Below, piece after piece: positions 4,596 through 43,370 of a stretch of DNA of 64,000 nt. The DNA is taken from assembly GCF_900167435.1 (NCBI RefSeq), contig NZ_FUWS01000007.1, forward strand, positions 225,522 through 289,521. The letters are read 5' to 3'. Position 1 is the first letter of the stretch; each line of letters opens with the position of its first letter. The translations under genes and the position numbers were made by a program. This stretch comes from Marinactinospora thermotolerans DSM 45154. Its GTDB lineage: Bacteria > Actinomycetota > Actinomycetes > Streptosporangiales > Streptosporangiaceae. The notes beneath the pieces were generated by a model that saw only the letters and a program-made list of their open reading frames with translations, did not search any database and was not told the DNA's origin.

Positions 4596-5143
4596 ACAGG
4601 CGAGGGGGCTCCCCCGCCAGGGGGCGCCGGGTCCGCGGGTGCCGTCCGTCCCGGAAGGCAGCCGCGGTGCAGGGGGCCCGCGGCCCCGGGGAGGCCCGCC
4701 TCGAAGACTCTTCCGTCGCCCTTCCCCAGGAGGGCACCCCGCCGTAAGGGGACGGCCCGTGCGGCCTCGCCTCTTCCGTGACCGAAGGTCCCTGTCCCGG
4801 GTTCGCCGAGCGGGCCGGGACGTTCCCCACCGGCCTCCATGGCCTCCCCTCTCGCGCCCCTCGCCCGGCGGGGATCCTCGCGTTGGCGTTCCACCGGCCG
4901 CGGCCTCGTCCTGGCGCGCGGCGGAGCCCCTGGAGGCAGCGGCAGGTCATGCGTCACCGGAGGAACAGGACGTTGCGCGCGGTGTCCCCCCACCGCAACC
5001 CGGGTGGCCGCGTCGCGGCGGTAGGGTCATGCCATACGGCGGTGTCCGATGGGGCGCTGGTCATCCCCATACGGGTCACCGCCCTCTTCCGCGGCCTCCG
5101 CGTTCTCTTCCTCGTCCCTCTATCACGGGTTGGTCCTCACGTC
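4596..5143. other. Long G+C-rich intergenic gap
   Basis: This 548-bp stretch has no convincing gene. Open frames run through it on both strands, but their composition is Arg/Pro/Gly-rich, as expected from shadow frames. It contains imperfect G+C-rich inverted repeats, for example GAGGGGGCTCCCCC near 4600-4620, which could stop transcription from the gene ending at 4595. No tRNA, riboswitch or strong promoter is visible. Confidence 0.5.
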
Positions 5144-6847
5144 ATGCGCCTGGTGTTCACGAACGCCGATCAGGAAACGTTCGACCGGTATCGTTCGTTG
5201 TTCGTCACACGAGTGGTCGATCACGCCCGCAGGGAACGGATCGAGGTGTCCCGGTGGGCGCTGGAGACGATCCTCGACTTCAAGTACGGCGAGCCCGACC
5301 TGGGCGGCGACGGACTGCTGGCGCGCTGGCACGGTTCCGACGTCGCCGCCCTGCTCCTGGACTGGCTGCCCCGAGAGGACATGGCCGCGCCGTTGCGCGT
5401 CGAGGAGGTGCGCTCCTCGCTGCTGGCCTGGGTGGAGTTCCTGCGCGCACGCGGATGGTACGACCCTCGCTCCGACGAGCCGGGGGAGCTGGTGGAGACC
5501 TTGGACACGCTCGCCGACGCCTACCGCCAGGCCGTGGCGAACCCGGCCGAGCACCGGGTCTCCCTGTTCCTCCAGCACAGCATGGTCGAGGCCGGCTACG
5601 ACCCCGAGGATCCCGACCAGGTCGCGGAGTTCGAGGCCGAGGTGGAGTCCGGCGGGGTGTCGCTGGACGAGGAGCTGATGGCCGCGATCGCGTCGGGCGA
5701 GGAGGAGGCCCCGCTGTCGCCCCTGTCGGGTCCCGGGCGGACCGGCTACACCTGGCGTGCCCCGCGGCTGCTGGAGGGGGCGGCCCTGGCCGAGGCGATC
5801 GAGGCGACCCCGACCATGCTCCGGCTTCGCGAGCAGGGCGACGACGCGCTCCCCGAGGACTCCGTCGAGGCGTGGCTGCTGGCCTACGAGGCGCTGGGGG
5901 AGGCGCTCGCCGAACGGCTGGGGCTCGACGAGGACGACTTCTACGAGGCGTTCGGCTCCGAGGCCGACGAGTTCGTCGCCTCCATCGTGACGACGCTGTT
6001 CATCGAAAGGCTGCCGCTCCCCGGCACGCTCGTCTCCGAGGTCGTCGCCGAGATGGGCGACCCCCTGGAGGAGGACCGGCCGCTCACCGACGAGGAGTCC
6101 GAACAGTTCGACCGCGCGGTGGGCCTGGTCCTCGGCGAGCTGGAGGGCCTGGGGGCCGTCGCGCGCGAGACGACGGGCGAGGAGGCCGAACTCGCGGGCG
6201 AGCCGGTGTTCCGGTTGACGCCGTTGGGCGAGTGGATCGGGTTCGACGAACTCGTCCTCGACGACTACACGATCCGCACCTTCGATGAACTGATGGCCGA
6301 GGACGCCGAGGTGCTCGTCGAGCGTGCCGCGGCCGGCGAGCCGTTCAGCGACGTCGACCTGGACGAGTGGATCGGGCAACGCGGCACGGAACGGGCGATG
6401 CGGGAGCTGGTGGAGGTGGCGCGGCGCACGGACGACTGCACGCACCGCGGAACGGTCCGCGCCGTCACCGCGGAACATCCCCAGGAGGCCCGTCCCGTCT
6501 ACGAGGAGCTGCGCGCGGACGGGGCGTTCGGTCCCCAGGCCCGCGCCTGGCTGTTCGACGCGGGCTTCCTCAAGGAGGGTGAGCTGGAGCCGGCCGACCT
6601 GCCGTGGGTCATGGTCGACGGCGTCGCCGCCATGGCGCGCATGAACCTGTTGGACGAGGAGCGGCTCGGCGAGCTGCCGGTCCGGCGCGGCGGCGAGGGA
6701 GCGTCGCTGCTGGAGCTCGCCCCCTCGCTCGGCCATCCCGAGACCACCTTCCTGCTGAGCTGGCTCGGGGACAACCATCCCGACCCGGGGGTCCGCAAGG
6801 AGGCGCGCACCGCGCTGTTCCGCTACCAAAGCGGCGGTGGCCGCTGA
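5144..6847 (+). CDS. Acidic hypothetical protein, helical-repeat-like
   Basis: A 567-residue protein of unknown function. I chose ATG 5144 because the recognisable protein begins MRLVFTNADQETFDRYRSLF; the frame extends upstream to 4778, but that part is low-complexity. The N-terminal ~90 residues end in LLLDWLPR, a pattern I associate with uncharacterised actinomycete proteins. The middle (~170-400) is very acidic. The last ~150 residues (MRELVEVARRTDD, ARAWLFDAGFL, HPETTFLLSWLGDNHPDPGVRKEARTALFRY) look like paired helices of a HEAT-type repeat. It has no signal peptide. A terminator at 6864-6904 closes the unit. Confidence 0.75.
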   Translation: MRLVFTNADQETFDRYRSLFVTRVVDHARRERIEVSRWALETILDFKYGEPDLGGDGLLARWHGSDVAALLLDWLPREDMAAPLRVEEVRSSLLAWVEFLRARGWYDPRSDEPGELVETLDTLADAYRQAVANPAEHRVSLFLQHSMVEAGYDPEDPDQVAEFEAEVESGGVSLDEELMAAIASGEEEAPLSPLSGPGRTGYTWRAPRLLEGAALAEAIEATPTMLRLREQGDDALPEDSVEAWLLAYEALGEALAERLGLDEDDFYEAFGSEADEFVASIVTTLFIERLPLPGTLVSEVVAEMGDPLEEDRPLTDEESEQFDRAVGLVLGELEGLGAVARETTGEEAELAGEPVFRLTPLGEWIGFDELVLDDYTIRTFDELMAEDAEVLVERAAAGEPFSDVDLDEWIGQRGTERAMRELVEVARRTDDCTHRGTVRAVTAEHPQEARPVYEELRADGAFGPQARAWLFDAGFLKEGELEPADLPWVMVDGVAAMARMNLLDEERLGELPVRRGGEGASLLELAPSLGHPETTFLLSWLGDNHPDPGVRKEARTALFRYQSGGGR

Positions 6848-6863
6848 CCTGGGCGGTCTGCAC

Positions 6864-6904
6864 GCGCGGGGCGCCCCGGCGATACCTGCCGGGGCGCCCC
6901 GCGC
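6864..6904. terminator. Bidirectional terminator hairpin
   Basis: A perfect 17-bp G+C stem (6864-6880 with 6888-6904) and a 7-base loop GATACCT. It sits between the convergent ends of the acidic protein (stop 6847) and the catalase (stop 6923), so it can serve both strands. Confidence 0.85.
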
Positions 6905-6922
6905 GCCGTCGTCCAGACGCCG

Positions 6923-8581
6923 TCAGCGCGTGACCTCGAACCGCTCGTTGGGAACGGTGTGGGTCATCTTCAGGCCGTTGACGTCACGAGGGCCGTTCTT
7001 GCCGAGCTTGCCCAAGCGGTCACGGTCCTCGTCGGTGAGGGTCTGGCTCTGAAGCGGCTCCAGGTGGGCGACGTCCTCGGGGGAGATGCCGAGCCCCTCC
7101 CCGACCCGTAGCCCCAGCTCGTCCTCGACCAGCAGGAAGTGCCAGACCATCCGTTCCTGGATCGGACGGTCGCACTGGGAGAGCTGGTTGACGAAGTTCT
7201 TCACCAGATCGTCGCGTTCCCACTGCTCCATGAGCCGGAAGCGCTGCCCCGCCTGCTTGTAGTCGTTGGTGCGCGGGATGCGTTTGCGCGTCACCCTGCC
7301 CACGATCTCCGGGCCCTGCTCGTCGTGGGTCGGGTACTGGGCCTCGCACAGCCCGCCGGTGATGGAGGGCTCGTAGTTGACGTGCGGGTTCCGGCCCCCG
7401 TTGTCCTGGGAGTAGGCCATCTGGCCGTCACGCTGGTTGGTGCGCACCTGGGCGTTCTTGGCCTGGTTGACCGGCAGCTGCAGGTAGTTGGGCCCCACCC
7501 GGTAGCGCTGGGTGTCGCTGTAGGAGAAGGTGCGGCCGACCAGCATCTTGTCGTCGGAGAAGTCCAGGCCGTCGACGAGCACACCGGTTCCGAACGAGAT
7601 CTGCTCGTTCTCCGTGAAGTTGTCGACGACGTTGCGGTTGAGGACGAGCCGGCCCACCGGCTTGGGCGGGAAGTCCTGCTCCGGCCAGGTCTTGGTGTCG
7701 TCGAGCGGGTCGAAGTCGAGTTCGGGATGCTCGTCGTCGCTCATCATCTGCACGAACAGCTCCCACTCGGGGTAGTCGCCCCGGTCGATGGCCTCGCGCA
7801 GGTCCTTGGTGGCGTGGCCGAGGTCGTGGGCCTGGATCTTGGCGGCGTCCTCCTCGGTCATGCTGCGCACGCCCTGTTTGGGCATCCAGGTGTACTTGAC
7901 CAGCACGGTCTCGCCCTTGTCGTTCACCCACTTGTAGGTGTTGACGCCGAACCCCTGCATGTGACGGTAGTCGGAGGGGATGCCGCGCGGGCTGAACAGG
8001 TTGACGAGCATGTGCATGCACTCGGGCGTCTGCGACATGAAGTCGAAGATCCGGTTGGGATCCTGCCGGAAGGTCACCGGGTCGGGTTTGAGGGAGTGGA
8101 TGACGTCGGGGAACTTGATGGCGTCACGGATGAAGAACACCGCGAGGTTGTTGCCCACAAGGTCCCAGTTGCCCTCCTCGGTGTAGAACTTCACCGCGAA
8201 ACCGCGCGGGTCGCGGACCGTCTCCGCGGAATCGCGTCCGCCGATGACGGTGGAGAACCGCAGCGCGACGTCGGTGCGCTTGCCCGCCTCCTGGAACAGC
8301 CCGGCCCGGGTGTAGCGGGAGATCGGTTCGTCACCCCACTTCCCGTAGGCCTCGAAGTAGCCGAACGCGGTCGCGCCACGGGCGTGCACGACCCGCTCGG
8401 GGATCCGTTCCCGGTCGAAGTGGCTGATCTTCTCCAGGAAGTGGTAGTTCTCCAGCGTCGCCGGGCCACGGGCGCCGACGGTGCGCTGGTTCTGGTTGTC
8501 GTAGACGGGGTGGCCTTGCCGGTTGGTCAGGGTCTGGCGCTCATCACCGCTGCGGCGGCCCTGGCTTGCTACGTCCGTCAT
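6923..8581 (-). CDS. katA: Heme catalase
   Basis: A 552-residue monofunctional heme catalase that converts hydrogen peroxide to water and oxygen. The active-site region [17 protein letters not shown] carries the distal His near residue 63. The distal Asn lies in [13 protein letters not shown], and the proximal heme Tyr lies in [17 protein letters not shown]. The length fits small- to mid-subunit catalases. The ATG at 8581 has a GAGGAAG ribosome binding site. It diverges from the OsmC/Ohr gene, giving a peroxide-defence pair around a shared 175-bp region. No Fur-type regulator gene is adjacent. Confidence 0.97.
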
Positions 8582-8663
8582 GACAGAACTTCCTCGATTA
8601 CTCTCGGCACCGGTGTTCGTGGGGTTCTCGGCCCGCTACCCGACCCCCTCGCCCTAATCACGG

Positions 8664-8695
8664 CCCCACCCCCGGGTCTGCGCCCGGGGGTGGGG
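8664..8695. promoter_or_regulatory. G+C hairpin in catalase/OsmC divergent region
   Basis: A perfect 13-bp inverted repeat (8664-8676 with 8683-8695) and a 6-base loop. It lies between two divergent genes, where a terminator is not expected, 83 bases from the catalase start and 62 from the OsmC start. It could be a structured leader of either transcript or a protein-binding site. Confidence 0.45.
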
Positions 8696-8756
8696 TGGTT
8701 CGGCGCACTCCGCCCGGGTAGCCGTCCCGCGCTCGGCACGGAGGAGGGACGAGGAG

Positions 8757-9191
8757 ATGGGACGACACGAGACGGTGCACGAGGCGCGGGCGATCGCCGA
8801 GAACGGGAGTGTGCGGACCGAGGAGGGTGCGCTGGTGACCCCGTTGGCATCGCCCCTGAAGCCGAACGGTCGCGGGGTGACACCCGAGCAGTTGCTGGCC
8901 GCCGGCTTCGCGGCGTGCCTGCACCACGCCGCGGCCGAGGCCGCGGCGGCCGACGGGGGCAGCGGCGCCGGCCGGCCGGTCCGGGTCGAGACCCGGGTGA
9001 GGCTGGGACGGGACGGGGGGCGTGGCTATGCCCTCGACGTCCGCGCGACGGTCCGTCCCAAGGGGGTGGGTCAGGACCACTGGGAGACGATCGCGCGCGC
9101 CGCCGAGGAGATCTGGCCCTTCGGCTGCGAGGAGTCGTCTCGCTTCAGGATCCACGTCGTACCTGACGACGGGGACTGCCCGGGCGACTAG
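8757..9191 (+). CDS. OsmC/Ohr-family peroxiredoxin
   Basis: A 144-residue thiol peroxidase of the OsmC/Ohr family, which reduces organic hydroperoxides in the cytoplasm. The first active-site Cys is in FAACLHHA (~residue 61). The second is in WPFGCEESS near residue 125, matching the family's Cys pair; the usual VCP around the second Cys is replaced by FGC. The conserved early PEQLLAAGFAAC helix is present. The ATG at 8757 follows a GAGGAGGGACGAGGAG purine run. Shares its upstream region with catalase, which supports an oxidative-stress role. Confidence 0.88.
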   Translation: MGRHETVHEARAIAENGSVRTEEGALVTPLASPLKPNGRGVTPEQLLAAGFAACLHHAAAEAAAADGGSGAGRPVRVETRVRLGRDGGRGYALDVRATVRPKGVGQDHWETIARAAEEIWPFGCEESSRFRIHVVPDDGDCPGD

Positions 9192-9363
9192 CCGGCGCGC
9201 CTTTCCGCGGGCCTCTCCCTCTGGGCGTGTGCCGTCGTGGCCGCACAGGCGTGCCTCGGGTTGTCCACAGCCCTCGGATTGCGGTGGTGAGGGCCGGCGT
9301 CCGGTACGCAGCATGGAGGTGCGGCGCTCAGATCGGGCGCCCGCCCCACCCTGGAGGTTCGCC

Positions 9364-9864
9364 ATGTCCTGGATCGGACGTCTCCTGCTCGTCACGCTGT
9401 TCACCGTGACCACGGCCACCTGGCACAGTGGTGCGCTGGGCGACGAAGGCGCGAAAGGGGGCATCGTGGACGGCTTCGCCGTGAACCATCTTCCTTCGGG
9501 GATCGGTTCGTCGGTCTCCGACTTCTCCTACGAATGGGGCGGGGTCGCCTTCTCCTCCCGGGTGTGGGAACGCGACCTCGGCGAGGAGGGGCACCGGGTG
9601 GACCTGAGCGTGGCGGTACTGCGGGGCGAGCGTCTCCGCGATCTCGCCGGTCTGCGGGATTTTCTGGCCGAATACCACGAACGCGATCTCGCCACCTGGC
9701 GGCTGACCCCCTTCTCCCACGGTTCCGATCCCGGCCTGATCACCGAAGGCCAGGCGTTCTGGTCGGTGGCGCCGGGGCTGGCCGTGTCGGTCCGTCTCGA
9801 TCCCGCCCGCTTCGACCTCCCCGAACTCACCGCGACCGCGCTCGGTGTGGTACCGACCGCGTGA
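9364..9864 (+). CDS. Small exported protein, unknown function
   Basis: A 166-residue protein starting at ATG 9364 behind TGGAGG. Residues 1-~25 (MSWIGRLLLVTLFTVTTATW) form a signal peptide or a single anchor, and there is no lipobox Cys. The remainder reads as a compact alpha/beta domain with VAFSSRVWERDL, VDLSVAVLRG and EGQAFWSVAPGLAVSVRLDPARF, reminiscent of bacterial domains that score exported substrate binding, but I do not recognise the family. It is followed by a hairpin terminator at 9888-9913. Confidence 0.75.
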   Translation: MSWIGRLLLVTLFTVTTATWHSGALGDEGAKGGIVDGFAVNHLPSGIGSSVSDFSYEWGGVAFSSRVWERDLGEEGHRVDLSVAVLRGERLRDLAGLRDFLAEYHERDLATWRLTPFSHGSDPGLITEGQAFWSVAPGLAVSVRLDPARFDLPELTATALGVVPTA

Positions 9865-9887
9865 GTCCGTTTTCCGACAAGCCGCAT

Positions 9888-9913
9888 GTCCCTCCCCCTG
9901 GGCGGGGAGGGAC
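9888..9913 (+). terminator. Terminator hairpin before dhaK
   Basis: A perfect 10-bp stem, GTCCCTCCCC (9888-9897) with GGGGAGGGAC (9904-9913), and a 6-base loop. It separates the exported protein from the dihydroxyacetone kinase operon, whose start is 33 bases further on. Confidence 0.65.
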
Positions 9914-9945
9914 CCTGGAGAGAATCCACGTGGAAAGAGGGGCAC

Positions 9946-10950
9946 ATGCGACGGCAGTTCGTCAACGACCCGGCCGACCTCGTCAACGAGGCGCTGGAGG
10001 GGTTCGAGGCCGCGCAGCGCGGTCGGATCCGCTGGAACCGCGATCCGTCCTATGTGGTACGCGCGGACTCCGGCCGGCGCCGCGGCAAGGTCGCCCTCGT
10101 CTCGGGGGGCGGGTCGGGACACGAACCCCTGCACGTCGGCTATGTGGGACCGGGAATGCTCGACGCCGCCGTGCCGGGCGCGGTGTTCGCCTCTCCCACC
10201 GCCATCCAGATCCAGGCGGCCTCCCGGGCCGCCGATTCCGGCGGCGGCGTCGTGCACATCGTCAAGAACTACACCGGTGACGTGCTGAACTTCCGCATCG
10301 CCGCGGAACTGCTGGAGGACGACGGCATCCGCGCCGAGGCGGTGTTCGTCGACGACGACGTCGCCTCCGACACCGGCGACGGCGAGGGACCGGGACGGCG
10401 CGGCACCGCGGCCGTCATCGCGGTCGAGAAGCTCTGCGGAGCCGCGGCCGAACGCGGCGACGACCTCGACGAGATCGTCGCCCTGGGACGGCGGATCACC
10501 TCGGGAGCCCGCACCTTCTCCGTCGCCCTGGCCGCGGGGGCGCATCCCGGTCAGGGACGGCCCTCCTTCGACCTCGCGGACGACGAGATCGAGTTCGGTG
10601 TCGGCATCCATGGTGAGCGGGCCCGCCAGCGCCACCCCTTCGCCCCCGTACGCGACCTCGTCCCCGAGATGGTCGATCGGGTACGCGACCCCCTCGGGCT
10701 GGGCCGCGGGGAACACGTCATCGCGATCGTGAACGGGCTCGGCTCCACCCATGACCTTGAGCTGTACGCCATCCACCGCGAACTCGTCCAGGTGCTGGCG
10801 AAGGAGGGGATCGTCATCGACCGCGCGCTGGTGGGCACCTATCTGACCTCGTTGGACATGGCCGGTTGTTCGATCACGTTGATCCGCTCGGACGACGACC
10901 TGGTCGACCTGTGGGACGCCCCGGTGTCCACGCCGGCGCTGACCTGGTGA
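9946..10950 (+). CDS. dhaK: Dihydroxyacetone kinase, DhaK subunit
   Basis: A 334-residue substrate-binding subunit that holds dihydroxyacetone as a hemiaminal on a His and accepts phosphate through DhaL. The substrate pocket GGGSGHEPLHVGYVG is at ~54-68. The covalent His is in FGVGIHGERARQ near residue 220. The ATG at 9946 has an AAAGAGGGG ribosome binding site; the frame extends to 9886, but without a site. It is 26 bases upstream of dhaL and clearly co-transcribed. A dhaM phosphotransfer gene is not present in the operon. Confidence 0.95.
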   Translation: MRRQFVNDPADLVNEALEGFEAAQRGRIRWNRDPSYVVRADSGRRRGKVALVSGGGSGHEPLHVGYVGPGMLDAAVPGAVFASPTAIQIQAASRAADSGGGVVHIVKNYTGDVLNFRIAAELLEDDGIRAEAVFVDDDVASDTGDGEGPGRRGTAAVIAVEKLCGAAAERGDDLDEIVALGRRITSGARTFSVALAAGAHPGQGRPSFDLADDEIEFGVGIHGERARQRHPFAPVRDLVPEMVDRVRDPLGLGRGEHVIAIVNGLGSTHDLELYAIHRELVQVLAKEGIVIDRALVGTYLTSLDMAGCSITLIRSDDDLVDLWDAPVSTPALTW

Positions 10951-33101: not shown

Positions 33102-35513
<2,412 letters not shown>

Positions 35514-35526
35514 CTGACCCTCCTTG

Positions 35527-35545
35527 TTGAGTCACTAGCACTCAA
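35527..35545. promoter_or_regulatory. HAIR element (HspR-associated inverted repeat)
   Basis: TTGAGT-N7-ACTCAA matches the inner 12 bases of the CTTGAGT-N7-ACTCAAG HspR operator exactly; only the outermost C and G differ. It ends 14 bases before the lon start, where a bound repressor would block the promoter. In streptomycetes lon belongs to the HspR regulon with dnaK and clpB. Confidence 0.82.
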
Positions 35546-35791
35546 TAAAGAAGAGTCTCCCTTTGTTCCCTGTTTCCTGTTCGCCCTGAGCGATCACGGG
35601 CAACCCCTCGGGGAGACCGGTTCGGGGCCCTCCTGCCGAGCGCGTGTCCCGGGTCCCGGATTGCCGGCGAGCCACGCCACGGCTCCGGGCACCCGCGGCG
35701 CCGTCCGCATCCCGCCGCGTTGGCGCGCCCGGTGGCGAAGCACCCTGGAGGGCGCCGCGAAACGCAGGGCGTCATGTCCCGGGAGGCCGCC

Positions 35792-37135
35792 TCAGCGGAG
35801 GAGGAGCAGGGTGTCCCAGCCGCTGGCCGGCGGACGGCCGGTGGCGTAGGCGTGCAGGGCCAGGGCGATCCCCGCGGCGCCGTCGAGGAACCCCGGCATG
35901 TCCAGATCGAGGTCGGCGGCCGGCTGGTGGAAGCGGAACCCGAACGGGGCCTCGGGATCGAAGCCGGCCAGCAGGCGTGCCGCGCTCTCCTCGACCGCCG
36001 GCCCGAAGCCGGCCTCGGGGTGGTCGGCGTGGAACAGGCCGAGCAGGTACAGGATCCCGGCCCGACCGTGGCAGAGGGCGTCGTCGACCACGCCCCAGTC
36101 CGCGACGGGCCTGCGGAGCATGGCCCGCACCGCCTCGAGACCGGCCCCGACCCACTCGGGCCGTCCCAGGGCCCGCCCGGCGAGGTCGAGGGCGCGGGCG
36201 GTCCCCACGGCCCCGTAACACCACGAGGGACGCGCCGGCAGGGGCGTGGGCCAGGCCCGCCGGTCCGCGTAGTAGCGCAGTGGCATGTAGGCGGTCCAGT
36301 ACGGTCCGGCGGCGTCCTCCTCGCGCCACTCCAGCAGCCACCGCGCCATGCCCTCGATCGCCTCGGCCTGCCCGTCGACCCGGACCCCCTCCTCCCAGGC
36401 CAGGGAGAGCAGGGCCAACGGGCCGGGGACCCCGTGGGCGAGACCCAGGTTGACCTGTCCGTCCGCGAACTCCTCGGCGACACGGGTGCGGGAGGTGGCG
36501 CCGAACCACCACCCGGGCACCTCGACCCCTCGGACCGACAGTGGCAGGCGCAGGGAGACCAGACAGCCCAGGGCCGCGCGCAGGGCGGCGGCCACGTCGG
36601 GGGCGGCGGCCCTGCGCCGGTGCAGCAGATAACGGCCGACTCCGCTGAGGCCGCTGAGGACGTCCACCAGCGCCGGGTAGGTCGGTTCCCCGGCCGCACG
36701 GGTGGAGACGTGCAGCGCCACCAACCGGTGGGCGTGCTCGGCCATACGGGCGTCCGTCCGGGCCAGGAGCCCCGCGTAGTCGCCGTCGGCGCCCGCGGCG
36801 ACACGGGCCGCGGAGGCCAGCGCGCCCACTCCGGCGAACGCGCCGTGCGCGGGTCGGGCACGGGTGGCCGCGGCCGACAGCTCCAGGTACCTGTGCGCGT
36901 TGAGCCGGTGTCCCTCACTGTCGGGGGCCGAGAGGCCCAACTCGGCGGGTAAGAGCACGAGCCCGGGATACCCCCGGTTGAGCGAGCCCGGCTCCCACAA
37001 CGGGGACCGGGACTCATCGACCCCGCGACGCCCGGCGTTGGCCCGGGTGGCCGCGACGACCGCGTCGGGATCGCTCAGCCGCCGGGCGACCTCCTCCACG
37101 ACACGCGCCGCACGGACCCGCTGCGGAGCGCTCAT
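35792..37135 (-). CDS. lanC: Lanthionine synthetase C-like cyclase (LanC)
   Basis: A 447-residue LanC-type cyclase that adds Cys thiols onto dehydrated residues to form thioether rings. The three zinc ligands are visible: Cys306 in PSWCYGAVG and Cys355-His356 in ALCHGRAGIL. The alpha-toroid repeats also appear in GLAHGVPGPLALLSLA and MPGFLDGAAGIALALHA. ATG 37135 overlaps the lanB stop by four bases, so translation is coupled. The longer frame to 37510 runs into lanB and is not the true start. Confidence 0.93.
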   Translation of the reverse strand: MSAPQRVRAARVVEEVARRLSDPDAVVAATRANAGRRGVDESRSPLWEPGSLNRGYPGLVLLPAELGLSAPDSEGHRLNAHRYLELSAAATRARPAHGAFAGVGALASAARVAAGADGDYAGLLARTDARMAEHAHRLVALHVSTRAAGEPTYPALVDVLSGLSGVGRYLLHRRRAAAPDVAAALRAALGCLVSLRLPLSVRGVEVPGWWFGATSRTRVAEEFADGQVNLGLAHGVPGPLALLSLAWEEGVRVDGQAEAIEGMARWLLEWREEDAAGPYWTAYMPLRYYADRRAWPTPLPARPSWCYGAVGTARALDLAGRALGRPEWVGAGLEAVRAMLRRPVADWGVVDDALCHGRAGILYLLGLFHADHPEAGFGPAVEESAARLLAGFDPEAPFGFRFHQPAADLDLDMPGFLDGAAGIALALHAYATGRPPASGWDTLLLLR

Positions 37136-40100
37136 CGGGCCCCTCCCCCCGTCCGGCCCACCCTGGTCCGGACCGCGCTGCGCAATAGGCCGTAGGAGCG
37201 GCGCTCCGCGGCGGGGTCCATGCCCAGCAGCCGGTTGGCGTGCATGTGCAGGAGGCCGGCGACGGCCGTGGCGGCCGCGGGGGAGGGCCGTTTCGAACCG
37301 CCGATCCCCAGGGCACGACCGTAGGCGCGGGCCGCCGCGGCGCGGGCCGGCCAGTGCGCGAAAAGCTCGTCCGCCCTCCCCGGCGGTCCGGCGAGTCTGC
37401 GGCACCGATCCGGGTCGGCCAGCGGGGCGGCGGTCCGGCGTACCGTGGGGGCGACCTCCTTCTGCAGCTCGATGGGGTAGGTGTCGAGCACCCAGCCGCA
37501 CCAGTCCCACTCCCCCAGGCCGCGCAGGAGTTCGGCGTGGTTCATCGCGGCCAGCGTCTCCAGGGGCGGGGCGGTCACCCCCCGCGCGCGGGCGGCGAGC
37601 TGGCCGGCCACGACACGGCTGTCGGCGTCGAAGAGCCGCTCGGCGTACTCGATCGCATCGGGACCGCCGTAGCGGAGGACCTCGGGTTCGTAGGTGTCGA
37701 GGACGACCTTGCGGATCACCCCGCGTTCGGTGACGGCCGCCGCCCAGGCGTGCAGGGCGGGCAGGACGGCGGAGAGCAACCGCTCGGGCCGCCCGTGCAG
37801 CCGCAGCCGCAGATGCGGGGCCGGATCGACGTAGCGCAGGAAGAACCAGCGGTCGACGTCGGCCTCCACCGTGGAGAGGAAGGCCGGCAGGTCGCGGACG
37901 AGGAGCGCGTCCATGCGGTCACGGGCGACGTAGACCTTCGCATAGAGCCACTCGCCTCCGGGCGGGTGGGCCACCCGTGGGGCGAGCCGGGCCGGTGCCG
38001 GGGCCGGCGGCCCGGGGCGGAGGGACAGCAACGGCACCACGACCTCGGCGGCGTGACCGTCGCTCCAGCCGGATTCCGCCGGATCGGCGAGGGGGGACTC
38101 CTGAAGCAGCGGGACCGCGCGTTCGCGCAGCTGGGCGCGGAGCAACCTCCGGTGCATCGGCGCGCCGAGGTCGAGGTCCAGGTGGCGGTCGAGCGCGCTG
38201 ACCCGCAACACGTCGGGGACGCCCAGCCGCTCCCGCCAGGCAGCGAGGGCGCGCTCCCACGCGCGTTCCGGCAGCGCGGGGTCGCACAGTGTGGGGTCCG
38301 GCCGCCAGCGGGCGGGCGCCAGGACGCTGCGGCCCCGGCGGACCCGGGGAAGGTGGGGCAGCGCGTCCAGACGGCCCCACTGCCACGGCGCCCAGGGACG
38401 GACCCCGCTCATCGAGACCGCCGCGAGGAAGCGGGCGATGTTGGGGGCCTCGGTGACGATGTTGAGCATGGTGGGACGGATGACCCTCACCTCCCGCCCG
38501 GTGGAGGCCAGGGCCAGGTAGAGCCGTTCGCCGGTGGCCCCCACGGCCAGATCGCCGAGGTCGACGGGATCGCCCGCCCCGTCCCGCTCCACCGGGAAGC
38601 AGCCCACCGCGACGGCCCTGGGGGCCAGCAGCGGGGTGCGCGCGACGTTGCCCGAGCGCGCCGCGTAGGGCTGGAAGAACAGGTGGGCGGTGAGGGGCCC
38701 GTCCCCCCGCTCCGCGTGCAGGCCGGCCAGTTCGCGTTCGAGGCCGAGGAGGTGGGCGAACCTCCCGGCCATCGCCCCCGCGGTGTAGGAGCCGTTGGCC
38801 ACCACCAGTCGGAAGTCCCCCTCGGCGAGGGCGTCCGCGGAGCGGGCGAGTATCTGGACGCACAGGTCGAGTGTCGGGGAGGGCGGGACCTCCTCCCCCT
38901 CCCCCGAGAGGGCGGCGACCAGCCCGTCGTCGAGGACGAGCTCGCTGCCCGGCCCGGCGGCGAGGGCGGCGTGGAGGGCGTGTCCCAGCGTCTCGTCGCG
39001 GGAGGCCGGGTAGGGCGTGGCGGCTTCGGGCGGGGCGGGGCGGTCCCCGGGGGGGCATCCGGTAGCCGGCGGGGACTCCCAGGCCGAGGTGGGGGTCGAG
39101 CAGCTCCCGGACGGGCACCAGACGACCGATCCCGTACCGGTCCAGGAACGCCCGGTGGTAGTCGGCGAGCTGGGGGGTGTGGGCCGCGCCCGCGGGGGCC
39201 AACCGCCACAGCACGTCGGCGGCGCGCGCCGCCTCGACCGCGACCTCCTCGGGAAGGCGGAAGTCGGCGTCGAGCCGCAGGTCGACCTGGATCGGGGGGC
39301 GGTCGCCGGGCAGGCCGGCGGAGCGCATCCGCCGCATGGCCGTGACGGCGTCGCGCCAGCGCTCCCCGCCCTCTCCCGGCGCGGTGGCCGCGTAGGCGTC
39401 CAGCAGCCGCGCCACCTCCCGCACTTCGATCGCCACCGGGGCGTCGGTCTGCGCCAGGCGCTCACCGAGGTGGGCGAGCGGATCGGGTAGGTCGGTACGG
39501 GACGCGACGTCGGTGAGGAGGATCTCGCGGTCGACGAGACGGCCGATGAGCAGGTCGACGTCGTCGGCGGCGGCCTCGGGGAAGCGCGCGCGGACCGCGG
39601 CGCGCAGCTCCGCGAAGGTCAGGGGCAGGCGGGCGGCCTCGACCGCGGCGCGCACGACAGGGGTGAGGCCGACGGTGAGCTCGTGGGCCACCGGGCCGCT
39701 CCGATGGCCGTCGGCCTCGCGGACATAGGGCAGGACGAGCCGGTCGCCGCGCCGGTGGCACAGGTTGTTGACGACGAGGAGGAGGCCGTCCCGCGCCTTG
39801 GGGTCGTGGTGGAGATCCGAGGTGAGGCCGGCCAGCCAGGCGGTGTCCGGCCGTGGCCGCTTGTGGTGGCGGGCGCCGATGCGGATCTCGGTCGGCGCGC
39901 CGAAGGACGCCGGGGCCACTCCGGCGAGCAGTCCGAAGGGGGTGGTGCGCCGGGTCATCCGCAGGAGGTAGCGGGTGACGGAGAGCACCGCGCGATCCAC
40001 CCTGGCCTGGTCGACAGGGCGGCCGGACTCGATGCGGGCGATGGTCGCGGCGAGGGAGGCGCTGGAGGTCTGGATCGCCTCGCGGACGACGGGGTCGGCG

Positions 40101-40264
40101 ACGAGGTCGAGCAGGAGGCGCGCGGATCCGCGCTGGTCGGCGGCCGCTCCGTCCGGGCGTGCCGTGACGGCCACGGCGGGGTGACGCAGGGGGAGCGCGG
40201 CCATCCGGACGACACCGAAGGACGCGGGACGGTACACCGCCCCATTCCGGGGATCACGCGACAC
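37132..40264 (-). CDS. lanB: Lanthipeptide dehydratase LanB, interrupted by a one-base frameshift
   Basis: Residues 1-~405 read in one frame (YRPASFGVVRMAALPLRHPAV, then RYLLRMTRRTTPFGLLAGVA), and the rest in another. The switch falls at seven G on the plus strand (39049-39055), coding ATG CCC CCC C. Removing one base joins the frames into 1044 codons exactly (1043 residues), the usual full LanB length. The joined protein has the glutamyl-tRNA-dependent dehydratase part (to ~700) and a C-terminal SpaB_C elimination domain (EWLYAKVYVARDRMDALLV, WFFLRYVDPAPHLRLRLHG). GTG 40264 is the likely start. The shift may be a sequencing error, a true mutation or a +1 slip. Confidence 0.88.
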
Positions 40265-40300
40265 TGGGTTCCGTTCGTTCGCTCACCGGGCCGCCCCGGT

Positions 40301-40329
40301 CCCCCATTGCCCGAGGCGGACAATGGGGG
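40301..40329 (-). promoter_or_regulatory. Stem-loop between lanA and lanB
   Basis: CCCCCATTG (40301-40309) pairs with CAATGGGGG (40321-40329) in the 86-bp gap between the precursor and dehydratase genes. Leaky hairpins at this position are common in lanthipeptide operons and give more precursor than enzyme. Confidence 0.6.
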
Positions 40330-40350
40330 TCGTTCTTCCTTGGCCGAAGG

Positions 40351-40515
40351 TCAGCAGCAGGGAATGCACATCGCGATTCCCGCGGCGTAGGTGTTGACCG
40401 TCGTGGGGGTGAGGGCGGCGTTCTCGTCGAGTTCGCGGGCGGCGTCGGGGTGAACAGGGGTGTCGTCGGTCGAGGTGACGAGTTCGACGTCGAGCTCGAA
40501 CAGGGCGCTGGGCAT
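40351..40515 (-). CDS. lanA: Class I lanthipeptide precursor (FxLD-type LanA)
   Basis: A 54-residue peptide that is shorter than usual gene-size cut-offs. It starts at ATG 40515 with GAGGAGG upstream. The leader has FELDVELV at residues 6-13, a match to the FNLD/FxLD box bound by LanB. The tail is rich in Thr (T36, T38, T39, T42) and ends in C50, C53 and C54 (AMCIPCC), with no Ser in the presumed core. A cleavage site near N32-L35 is plausible. Immediately upstream of lanB and lanC on the same strand. No relative comes to mind with this exact core. Confidence 0.85.
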   Translation of the reverse strand: MPSALFELDVELVTSTDDTPVHPDAARELDENAALTPTTVNTYAAGIAMCIPCC

Positions 40516-40572
40516 ATTCGTCCTCCTCGGCGGGAATGCGGGTCATTGGCACCCGACCCGCAGGGCGAAGCA

Positions 40573-40602
40573 AATATAGGTACCACCATTCGCGTAATAC
40601 AA
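40573..40602 (-). promoter_or_regulatory. Candidate lanA promoter
   Basis: On the minus strand, TTGTAT (40597-40602) and TATATT (40573-40578) are 18 bases apart in a distinctly A+T-rich stretch, 58 bases before the precursor start. The local base composition stands out from the surrounding 70-75% G+C. Confidence 0.5.
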
Positions 40603-40926
40603 CCGTTGACAAAACAACGTCGATATGGGCGTGGAAACGACACGGCGTCACGACGCTTCCCCGCCGGCCCACCCCGACACGCCGACGAGATCTGGCGGTT
40701 CGCCGCGTTTCGCAAGGTCCCGGGGTCGTGAGTTGCACCACCCGCCCCATGAACGGATACGCCCCCGGAAAGGTCAGACCCGCTGACCAGGCGCATCGCC
40801 ATGTGTGACACAAACGTTACGACAGAGAGCACCTATATATGTGGACAACGTCACTCAAAACCACTTCCATCAGACGAAACAACCCCGGTCTACACCACAC
40901 CATCCGGCGGTACTGGAGGTACACGC
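40603..40926. other. Divergent region between lanthipeptide and sugar ABC operons
   Basis: The remaining 324 bases hold no gene. An A+T-rich zone at 40800-40870 (TGTGACACAAACGTTACG, then CCTATATATG) is the probable promoter and operator zone of the ABC operon, about 60-120 bases upstream of its start. No regulator gene is adjacent. Confidence 0.4.
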
Positions 40927-42273
40927 ATGACCACGCCCGCGCGCCGCCGCGCGACCATCGCGGCGTCACTCCCCCTACTGCTACTCGCCGGTGGCTGTTC
41001 CTACCTATCGGGCGAATCGCAGGGAGCCGACCCCCAATCCGCCGACTGCGACGCCTACGAGCAGTGGCAGGGACACGACGGCACCACCGTTTCCATCTAC
41101 GCCTCCATTCGCGACCAGGAGGCCGAGCTGCTGGAAGAATCCTGGTCGGAGTTCTCCTCGTGCACCGGTATCGACATCGCCTATGAGGGAAGCGGCGAAT
41201 TCGAGGCGCAGATCCAGGTGAAGGTCGACGGCGGAAACGCCCCCGACCTCGCCTTCTTCCCCCAACCCGGCCTACTCGCCCGTTTCGCCCAATCAGGTGA
41301 CGCCATCGCGCTTCCCGAAAGCGTGCGCGCCAACGCGGAATCCGGTTGGAGCGAGGACTGGCTGAACTACGCCACCGTCGACGGAGAGCTCTACGGAACG
41401 CCGTTGGGGGCCAACGTCAAGTCGTTCGTCTGGTACTCCCCCGGACTCTTCTCCGACAACGGCTACGCGACGCCCACGACCTGGGACGAGCTGATCGAGA
41501 TCAGCGACGCGATGGTCGAGGACGGCATCAAGCCGTGGTGCGCCGGCATCGAGTCCGGTGACGCCACCGGCTGGCCCGCCACCGACTGGGTCGAGAACAT
41601 CATGCTGCGCGAACACGGCCCCGAGGTCTACGACCAGTGGGTCGACCACGAGATCCCCTTCGACGATCCGGCCGTCGCCGAGGCGCTCGACCGCGTCGAC
41701 TCCATCCTGCGCAACCCCGACTACGTCAACGGCGGCCACGGCGAGGTGCAGAGCATCGCCACGACCTCCTTCCAGGACGCGGGCACCCCCATCCTCGACC
41801 GGCAGTGCGGCATGTACCTGATGGGCTCCTTCTACGCCGCCCAGTGGCCCGAGGGGACCACCGTCGCCGAGGACGGTGACGTCTACGCCTTCAACCTGCC
41901 GCCCATCCAGGAGGAGCACGGCACCCCGGTGCTCGGCGGTGGCGAGTTCATCGGCGCCTTCGCCGACCGCCCCGAGGTCGTCGCGGTCCAGGAGTACCTG
42001 TCGACCGTGGAGTACGCCAACAGCCGCGCCTCCCTGGGCTCCTGGTTCTCCGCCCACCGCGACCTCGACCTCGACCTTCTCGAGGCCCCGACCGACCGAC
42101 TGGGCGCCGAGACCCTGCGCGACTCCGAGGCGGTGTTCCGGTTCGACGGCAGCGACATGATGCCGGCCTCGGTCGGCGCCGGAACGTTCTGGCGCGGCAT
42201 GACGAACTGGATCAACGGCGACGAGACCGAGGAGACCCTCGCCTACATCGAGGAATCCTGGCCCTCCTCCTGA
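40927..42273 (+). CDS. Sugar ABC transporter substrate-binding lipoprotein
   Basis: A 448-residue extracellular binding protein. The signal peptide ends at a lipobox LLAGGC with Cys24 as the lipidated residue. The remainder is a cluster B-type solute-binding fold (DLAFFPQPGLLARFAQSGD, VDGELYGTPLGANVKSFVWYSP, GYATPTTWDELIEISDAM), closest in my recollection to alpha-glucoside binding proteins (AglE). ATG 40927 has TGGAGG. It is the first gene of a three-gene importer; an ATPase is missing, as in actinomycetes that share MsiK. Confidence 0.93.
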   Translation: MTTPARRRATIAASLPLLLLAGGCSYLSGESQGADPQSADCDAYEQWQGHDGTTVSIYASIRDQEAELLEESWSEFSSCTGIDIAYEGSGEFEAQIQVKVDGGNAPDLAFFPQPGLLARFAQSGDAIALPESVRANAESGWSEDWLNYATVDGELYGTPLGANVKSFVWYSPGLFSDNGYATPTTWDELIEISDAMVEDGIKPWCAGIESGDATGWPATDWVENIMLREHGPEVYDQWVDHEIPFDDPAVAEALDRVDSILRNPDYVNGGHGEVQSIATTSFQDAGTPILDRQCGMYLMGSFYAAQWPEGTTVAEDGDVYAFNLPPIQEEHGTPVLGGGEFIGAFADRPEVVAVQEYLSTVEYANSRASLGSWFSAHRDLDLDLLEAPTDRLGAETLRDSEAVFRFDGSDMMPASVGAGTFWRGMTNWINGDETEETLAYIEESWPSS

Positions 42274-42339
42274 TTCCCGCTGCCCCCGAGGCGGGCGACG
42301 GCCCCCGTCCCCGCCCATCCCTCCTCCCGTAAGTCCGTC

Positions 42340-42367
42340 CCGGGCGCCGGCGCGTGCCGGCGCCCGG
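42340..42367 (+). promoter_or_regulatory. Intercistronic hairpin after the binding-protein gene
   Basis: A perfect 12-bp stem (42340-42351 with 42356-42367) and a GCGT loop in the 116-bp gap before the first permease. Such hairpins usually protect the 5' message and raise the ratio of binding protein to membrane components. Confidence 0.65.
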
Positions 42368-42389
42368 TCCGCCCACCGAAAGGGCCGGC

Positions 42390-43370
42390 ATGGGCTTCTC
42401 CCTGCTCGAAGAACTCCCCAAGATCCTGTGGCTGGTGATCGGCGTCGCCGGGTTCGCCGCCGTCATCGGTCTGCTCCTGCTCCTGGTCGACCGCGGGCCC
42501 AAGACCCGGCGCGACTGGTGGCAGGCCGTGTGCTTCCTCGGCCCCGCGCTGCTGTTGCTGCTGCTGGGCCTGGTCTACCCGGCGATTCGCACCACCGCGC
42601 TGTCGTTCTTCGACAGATCCGGTGACAGCCTGGTCGGGTTGGACAACTACGTCTGGATGTTCACCCAGCCCGAGATCCTCACGGTGCTGCGCAACACGCT
42701 GCTGTGGGTGCTGTTCGCCCCCTTCCTGGCGACCGCGACCGGGCTGCTCTACGCGATCCTGGTGGACCGCTCGCGTTTCGAGTCGGTGGCCAAGTCGCTG
42801 ATGTTCATGCCGATGGCGATCTCCTTCGTCGGCGCCAGCATCATCTGGCGGTTCGTCTACGCGGTGCGCCCCGCCGAATCCGACCAGATCGGCCTGCTCA
42901 ACCAGATCGTCGTCTGGTTCGGCGGCGAGCCCCAGCAGTGGCTGCTCAACCAGCCCCTGAACACGCTGCTGCTGATCGTCGTGTTGATCTGGGTGCAGGC
43001 CGGGTTCGCGATGGTCGTGCTGTCCGCCGCGATCAAGGCCATCCCGGCCGAGATCATCGAGGCCGCGCGCCTCGACGGGACGACGCCCTGGCAGCTGTTC
43101 CGCCACATCACGCTGCCCTCGGTCTGGCCGACCGTGACCGTCGTGCTGATCACGATCTCGGTGCAGACGCTCAAGGTCTTCGACATCGTGCGCACCATGA
43201 CCGGTGGCCAATTCGACACCAGCGTGATCGCCAACGAGATGTACAACCAGGCGTTCCGCTACGGCGAGCTGGGCCAGGGCTCGGCGCTGGCGGTCTTCCT
43301 GTTCGTTCTGGTCATTCCTCTTGTCCTCGTGCAGATGCGCACCAATCGACGTGCCAGGGAGCAGCGATGA
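42390..43370 (+). CDS. Sugar ABC permease, first subunit (AglF-like)
   Basis: A 326-residue inner-membrane permease of the MalF type with an extra N-terminal membrane segment (ILWLVIGVAGFAAVIGLLLLLVD). The cytoplasmic EAA loop reads EIIEAARLDGTTPWQLFRHITLP, which docks the ATPase. ATG 42390 has GAAAGGG. Its stop overlaps the start of the next permease by four bases. With the lipoprotein upstream it should import an alpha-glucoside or related oligosaccharide; the substrate is inferred. Confidence 0.92.
   Translation: MGFSLLEELPKILWLVIGVAGFAAVIGLLLLLVDRGPKTRRDWWQAVCFLGPALLLLLLGLVYPAIRTTALSFFDRSGDSLVGLDNYVWMFTQPEILTVLRNTLLWVLFAPFLATATGLLYAILVDRSRFESVAKSLMFMPMAISFVGASIIWRFVYAVRPAESDQIGLLNQIVVWFGGEPQQWLLNQPLNTLLLIVVLIWVQAGFAMVVLSAAIKAIPAEIIEAARLDGTTPWQLFRHITLPSVWPTVTVVLITISVQTLKVFDIVRTMTGGQFDTSVIANEMYNQAFRYGELGQGSALAVFLFVLVIPLVLVQMRTNRRAREQR

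Follow-up and report, generated by a model that had tools for sequence, protein, structure and literature searches.

Compact LanA-LanB-LanC sets of the class I lanthipeptides, SCO0268-0270 among them, are on record (PMC3091789), and FxLD leaders have long been recognised in class I precursors, about 24% of which are described as unannotated (PMC7268733). About one third of lanthipeptide clusters are reported to be without a protease gene (PMC8960859). We analysed a window of 64,000 nt from Marinactinospora thermotolerans DSM 45154 (contig NZ_FUWS01000007.1, here C24, positions 225,522-289,521, forward strand; coordinates below are positions within this window), which holds a lanA-lanB-lanC locus whose lanB gene changes frame by one base within a run of seven C. 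The locus is very probably a class I lanthipeptide gene set working by the LanA-LanB-LanC route set out below. It is a locus of known type with an unfamiliar core, and its product is possibly antibacterial. Its genes and the break were placed as follows.

40351-40515, minus strand: lanA, a 54-residue precursor with the leader box F6-E-L-D, recognised by its open reading frame (ORF), leader profile and codon use
Within residues 27-54 of lanA: probable core, with Thr 36, 38, 39 and 42 and Cys 50, 53 and 54
39056-40264, minus strand: N-terminal part of lanB, first half of the glutamylation domain, in the first frame (PF04738 1-353, E 3.8e-103)
39049-39055, minus strand: C7 run with the one-base frame change of lanB, located by the frame switch and alignment with relatives
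37132-39048, minus strand: remainder of lanB, rest of the glutamylation domain plus the elimination domain, in the second frame (PF04738 337-649, E 8.5e-76; PF14028 1-255, E 6.1e-53)
35792-37135, minus strand: lanC, a cyclase of 447 aa (PF05147; zinc-ligand motifs WCYG and CHG line up with those of NisC)

The Pfam matches, the loci of relatives and the gene order on the minus strand (lanA 40351-40515, lanB 40264-37132, lanC 37135-35792) bore out the preliminary description of a compact class I locus in A-B-C order. PF04738 and PF14028 identified LanB, spread over two frames, and PF05147 identified the adjoining LanC, whose start overlaps the lanB stop (ATGA) in an operon-like manner. The short precursor beside lanB carries an FxLD box and a core of the Ser/Thr-plus-Cys kind. 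The preliminary description had placed lanB and lanC directly after lanA; the order and identities stood, and the break in the lanB frame had been missed.

Analyses of the two LanB parts indicated that each belongs to a dehydratase. They matched the solved lantibiotic dehydratase 5ehk, which we take to be MibB, with E values of 1.1e-43 and 1.4e-65, and aligned with it and with NisB through the TPFG, FFLRY-DP-PH-RLR, YxxEVxRYGG and HxHxNRL stretches. LanC aligned with 8byk and NisC, WCYG and CHG included. For wider comparison we took loci of 15 kb, or less at contig ends, around the best 20 LanB relatives, plus two from a class-wide search. LanB relatives from 16 of these 22 loci were aligned (six gave no usable long LanB call), and the window LanB was 34-43% identical to them. 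In a tree built from 21 LanB N-termini, the window sequence formed no part of any starred (well-supported) set. It stood alone, separated from the FxLD-methyltransferase type at 92/91 support, a value that was not starred.

The first lanB frame is the ORF 40264-37919 and the second the ORF 39465-37132, with homology switching between them at the C7 run, which adjoins a G4 run. Of the columns invariant among 15 aligned relatives (L083 was outside this count), the window keeps 33 of 35 before the break and 45 of 47 after it. Because both parts retain nearly all invariant residues, we take the break for a recent event or a sequence error or, with lower likelihood, a site of recoding. Translation of the first frame stops 787 bases short of the lanC start, and for that reason LanB, as sequenced, would be non-functional and lanC uncoupled. 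Among the best 20 relatives, 19 have one open lanB frame of at least 1,007 codons and the 20th (G184) stops at a contig edge; among lower-ranked LanB matches several open frames span only 344-600 codons and may or may not be broken genes. PMC3091789 records split or frameshifted lanB genes for Enterococcus faecalis Fly1 and for two Geobacillus genomes.

In thiopeptides and pinensins the glutamylation and elimination domains are encoded by separate genes. Such a split-LanB arrangement was considered for the window and rejected, because the break falls within PF04738 at about position 345 of 649.

The 54-codon lanA frame reads MPSALFELDVELV...MCIPCC and encodes the peptide MPSALFELDVELVTSTDDTPVHPDAARELDENAALTPTTVNTYAAGIAMCIPCC, with FELDVELV and a CxxCC end directly before lanB, in agreement with the preliminary description. 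Its core holds four Thr and three Cys and lacks Ser. A leader profile built from the leaders of 19 relatives, with near-duplicates left out and the window peptide not used, ranked lanA first among 108,549 six-frame positions of the window (20.3 bits; runner-up 16.0), and the codon score was +15.5 in the lanA frame compared with -12 to -49 in the other five frames. Of the relatives' 22 loci, 20 have a short F-x-[LM]-[DEQ] ORF next to lanBC, one gene away in L064 and after lanC in L076; of the other two, L094 has a YGLD variant and none was found in L083. Based on the top rank from a profile that excluded the window, and on the FxLD precursors beside the relatives' lanBC genes, we consider the lanA leader to be real, and the FxLD leader proposed in the preliminary description holds.

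Three described types were compared with the locus. The microbisporicin/planosporicin type shares a full-length-type LanB and a LanC, 5ehk being the best solved LanB relative. In contrast to that type, the window core lacks both Ser and the S-x-x-x-C-T-P-G-C lipid II motif, lanB is interrupted, and no gene for LanD, a P450 or a halogenase adjoins the locus. The motif in the form S-x-x-x-C-T-P-[GS]-C, as given in PMC7268733, is absent from all 54 residues. Clusters for AviCys-bearing lanthipeptides have a LanD decarboxylase gene; six PF02441 matches occur in the genome, none on C24.

The SCO0268 family and embleporicin share with the window the compact LanA-LanB-LanC set, an L/F-x-L-D leader and a C-x-x-C-C end, as described in PMC3091789 and PMC11672506. 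The likeness between the Embleya plasmid precursor of L117 (59 aa), TSPSTYGVQSRCPLCCA, and the window peptide, TPTTVNTYAAGIAMCIPCC, is one seen by eye; BLASTP gave no alignment. The SCO0268 family model TIGR04451 matched L117 (46.5 bits, cut-off 40) and not the window peptide. The embleporicin/SCO0268 type is the closest core by eye, which sequence tests do not confirm. A search with the Embleya precursor in 296 genomes gave two weak matches, neither inside a lanthipeptide locus, and both were rejected.

The FxLD-methyltransferase types (olv, coi) likewise have an FxLD leader, LanB and LanC. These clusters have a methyltransferase and a conserved core Asp, whereas residues 31-54 of the window peptide contain no Asp and no methyltransferase gene adjoins the locus, the neighbors being Lon and a solute-binding protein. 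The genome has 20 PF01135 matches for the FxLD-system methyltransferase, none on C24; with the model TIGR04364 for that enzyme, the controls L078, L081 and L082 all matched. The FxLD-family precursor model to which the preliminary description had pointed, TIGR04363, did not match the window peptide at E <=10, whereas the controls L120 and L078 scored 61.0 and 60.1 bits. Nor did NF038155 (FDLD family class I lanthipeptide, cut-off 20 bits), with which L078 and L065 themselves scored only 17.4 and 17.1.

Several observations weigh against the locus being a working class I set. Foremost, lanB is not one open frame and a full LanB is not predicted as sequenced, so that an intact LanB reading frame is missing from the sequence as it stands. 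Family matches of the neighboring genes revealed no dedicated exporter, protease or immunity gene adjoining the locus, and an ABC transporter of one cluster, present in 11 of the 20 relatives' loci L064-L083, does not occur beside it. A sigma-70-type scan found no promoter upstream of lanA. The lanA peptide had no match in NCBIfam (E <=10), Pfam (E <=0.1) or PHROGs (E <=10), in keeping with the unfamiliar core of the preliminary description, and no significant match in other genomes (samples of 297 and 394). Candidate homologues at E <=1 appeared in 80 of 297 same-family genomes, the best outside its own genome at 0.04, and were read as chance; the few of these loci that were inspected held no FxLD peptide. 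At E <=0.02 one of 394 class genomes matched, namely its own, and a contig scan of genomes gave one relative only, Actinomadura craniellae. FELDVELV was not found among the literature matches listed for CIPCC or FELDVELV, whose titles were unrelated.

Of the explanations for the break, the one we place first, while stopping short of calling it probable, is that lanB is truly inactivated. A recent one-base slippage in the C7 run would have silenced a working locus, leaving lanA and lanC in place with no lanthipeptide made and lanC deprived of its coupling to lanB. The lack of an adjoining exporter is consistent with such a loss, as is the state of the assembly elsewhere. A frame-switch scan of 464,000 bases flagged 36 candidates; besides lanB, 8 of the 36 were read individually, and all 8 fell where one called gene gives way to another that has its own start codon, with no mid-gene switch. 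Of twelve runs of at least seven C or G in 480,001 bases of the genome, six lie within called genes whose frames remain open, five lie outside called genes and the last is the one in lanB, which argues that such runs are not generally misread. Since the other candidates read were gene boundaries and the six other runs within called genes left the frame open, the assembly does not look error-prone. Inactivation is harder to square with the retention of 33/35 and 45/47 invariant columns before and after the break, and with an intact LanC and no other visible decay.

That same conservation on both sides favors a second explanation, namely that the frame change arose from an error of sequence or assembly in a homopolymer next to G4, in which case the real lanB would be intact and the locus would work. 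We regard this as a serious possibility, though a tentative one. The break falls exactly in the C7-G4 stretch, the best relatives have a single long frame (the 20th reaching a contig edge), and the same doubt is printed for the split lanB of E. faecalis Fly1 in PMC3091789. However, no comparable break was met at the places examined across 464,000 bases of this assembly, and the genus is represented by one genome. Recent mutation and local sequence error are about equally likely sources of the frame break, which decides whether the locus is alive.

We think it unlikely that the C7 run is functional, acting by +1 frameshifting in translation, by slippage during transcription or by phase variation that turns lanB on and off, and so allowing the strain to tune lanthipeptide production through homopolymer length or decoding. 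The frame can pass between two long open frames with 1,700 bases of overlap, and conservation persists on either side; no such arrangement was seen in the 16 aligned relatives, however. Least credible of all is that the true substrate of LanB and LanC is some peptide other than that of the 54-residue ORF, since, although lanA has only 54 codons and lacks a family match or core relative, its leader rank, codon bias, ribosome-binding site and position, and the FxLD precursors beside lanBC in the relatives, all point to it as the substrate.

Three further features were found around lanA.

40516-40535, minus strand: ribosome-binding site AGGAGG, just before the lanA ATG
40550-40649, no strand assigned: A+T-richer stretch, a possible promoter region (G+C 0.54)
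40301-40329, minus strand: intergenic lanA-lanB hairpin, its stem of 13 pairs followed by no T run, possibly a partial terminator or mRNA stabiliser

The ribosome-binding site and the hairpin had both been reported in the preliminary description. The A+T-rich promoter reported with them stood only as the dip in G+C, the promoter scan having given no match. The hairpin (40329-40301; -30.6 kcal/mol, z -2.7) was not listed among terminator-like sites, and Rfam gave no match within 34000-43000. Among the 13 relatives in which lanA precedes lanB, 10 showed an unbroken run of ten or more opening pairs in the fold, and z reached -2 or below in 6; the position of the hairpin is kept among relatives and its sequence is not. 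We infer that it acts as a partial terminator or stabiliser, which would give more lanA than lanB. Long, stable hairpins after the precursor gene recur in actinobacterial class I loci (L065, L095, L117, L118, L077, L081 and others).

Downstream of lanC lies a gene for Lon protease (33102-35513), and upstream, divergently oriented, are a solute-binding-protein gene and two permease genes. Farther off are an MFS transporter, a GntP permease, LysR/DeoR/AraC-type regulators and a two-component system, for which no tie to the locus was seen and none was tested for. The same genome has a second lanthipeptide locus (L096, contig C21:72000-88000), with a LanM gene at 7243-10452 (minus strand; PF13575 and PF05147) and a precursor at 10578-10817 (minus strand) of the cinnamycin family (NF033431, E 7.6e-32).

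The loci L064-L076 and L095 resemble the window in their FxLD-type leader and in LanB, which is 39-43% identical where aligned, but differ in their cores and in having lanB unbroken where complete. L073 and L095 look equally bare by gene calls. A JmjC-type gene (cluster c3) occurs in 6 of the 20 loci L064-L083 (L064, L065, L068, L069, L072 and L074); its domain PF08007 was present in both loci tested, L064 and L068, and it is possibly a hydroxylase acting on the peptide. L068, L069, L074 and L072 have a second LanC-like gene near the precursor, on the opposite strand to lanB. In L094, of the same class, an intact LanB gene (5554-8736) is preceded by a precursor-like ORF (about 5070-5370) whose leader reads YGLD and which lacks Cys and contains three tandem repeats, each about 22 residues long. 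No LanC is among the called genes in the 14 kb fetched; the product of this ORF is perhaps a dehydrated, uncyclised multi-core peptide.

By analogy with the families concerned, LanB would bind the FxLD leader of LanA and dehydrate up to four core Thr via glutamyl-tRNA, glutamylation being followed by elimination to dehydrobutyrine with the loss of up to four waters. LanC, a zinc enzyme, would then add the three cysteines in the C-x-x-C-C end. With four Thr and three Cys but no Ser in the core, only methyllanthionine rings would be expected, up to three of them. For a loss of three waters, the calculated monoisotopic masses would be 2244.02, 2129.98 or 1874.82, given cleavage ahead of residue 32, 33 or 36. 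Leader removal and export would fall to an unlinked protease and exporter. With the frame-broken lanB, there may be no product made.

The locus adds to the class I lanthipeptides an unmatched, Ser-free, CxxCC-ended core on a LanB branch of its own. It also carries a caution, in that a locus complete by eye has a frame-broken dehydratase, which calls for resequencing before a search for the product. If the break were in truth functional, it would represent a new way of switching a lanthipeptide locus.

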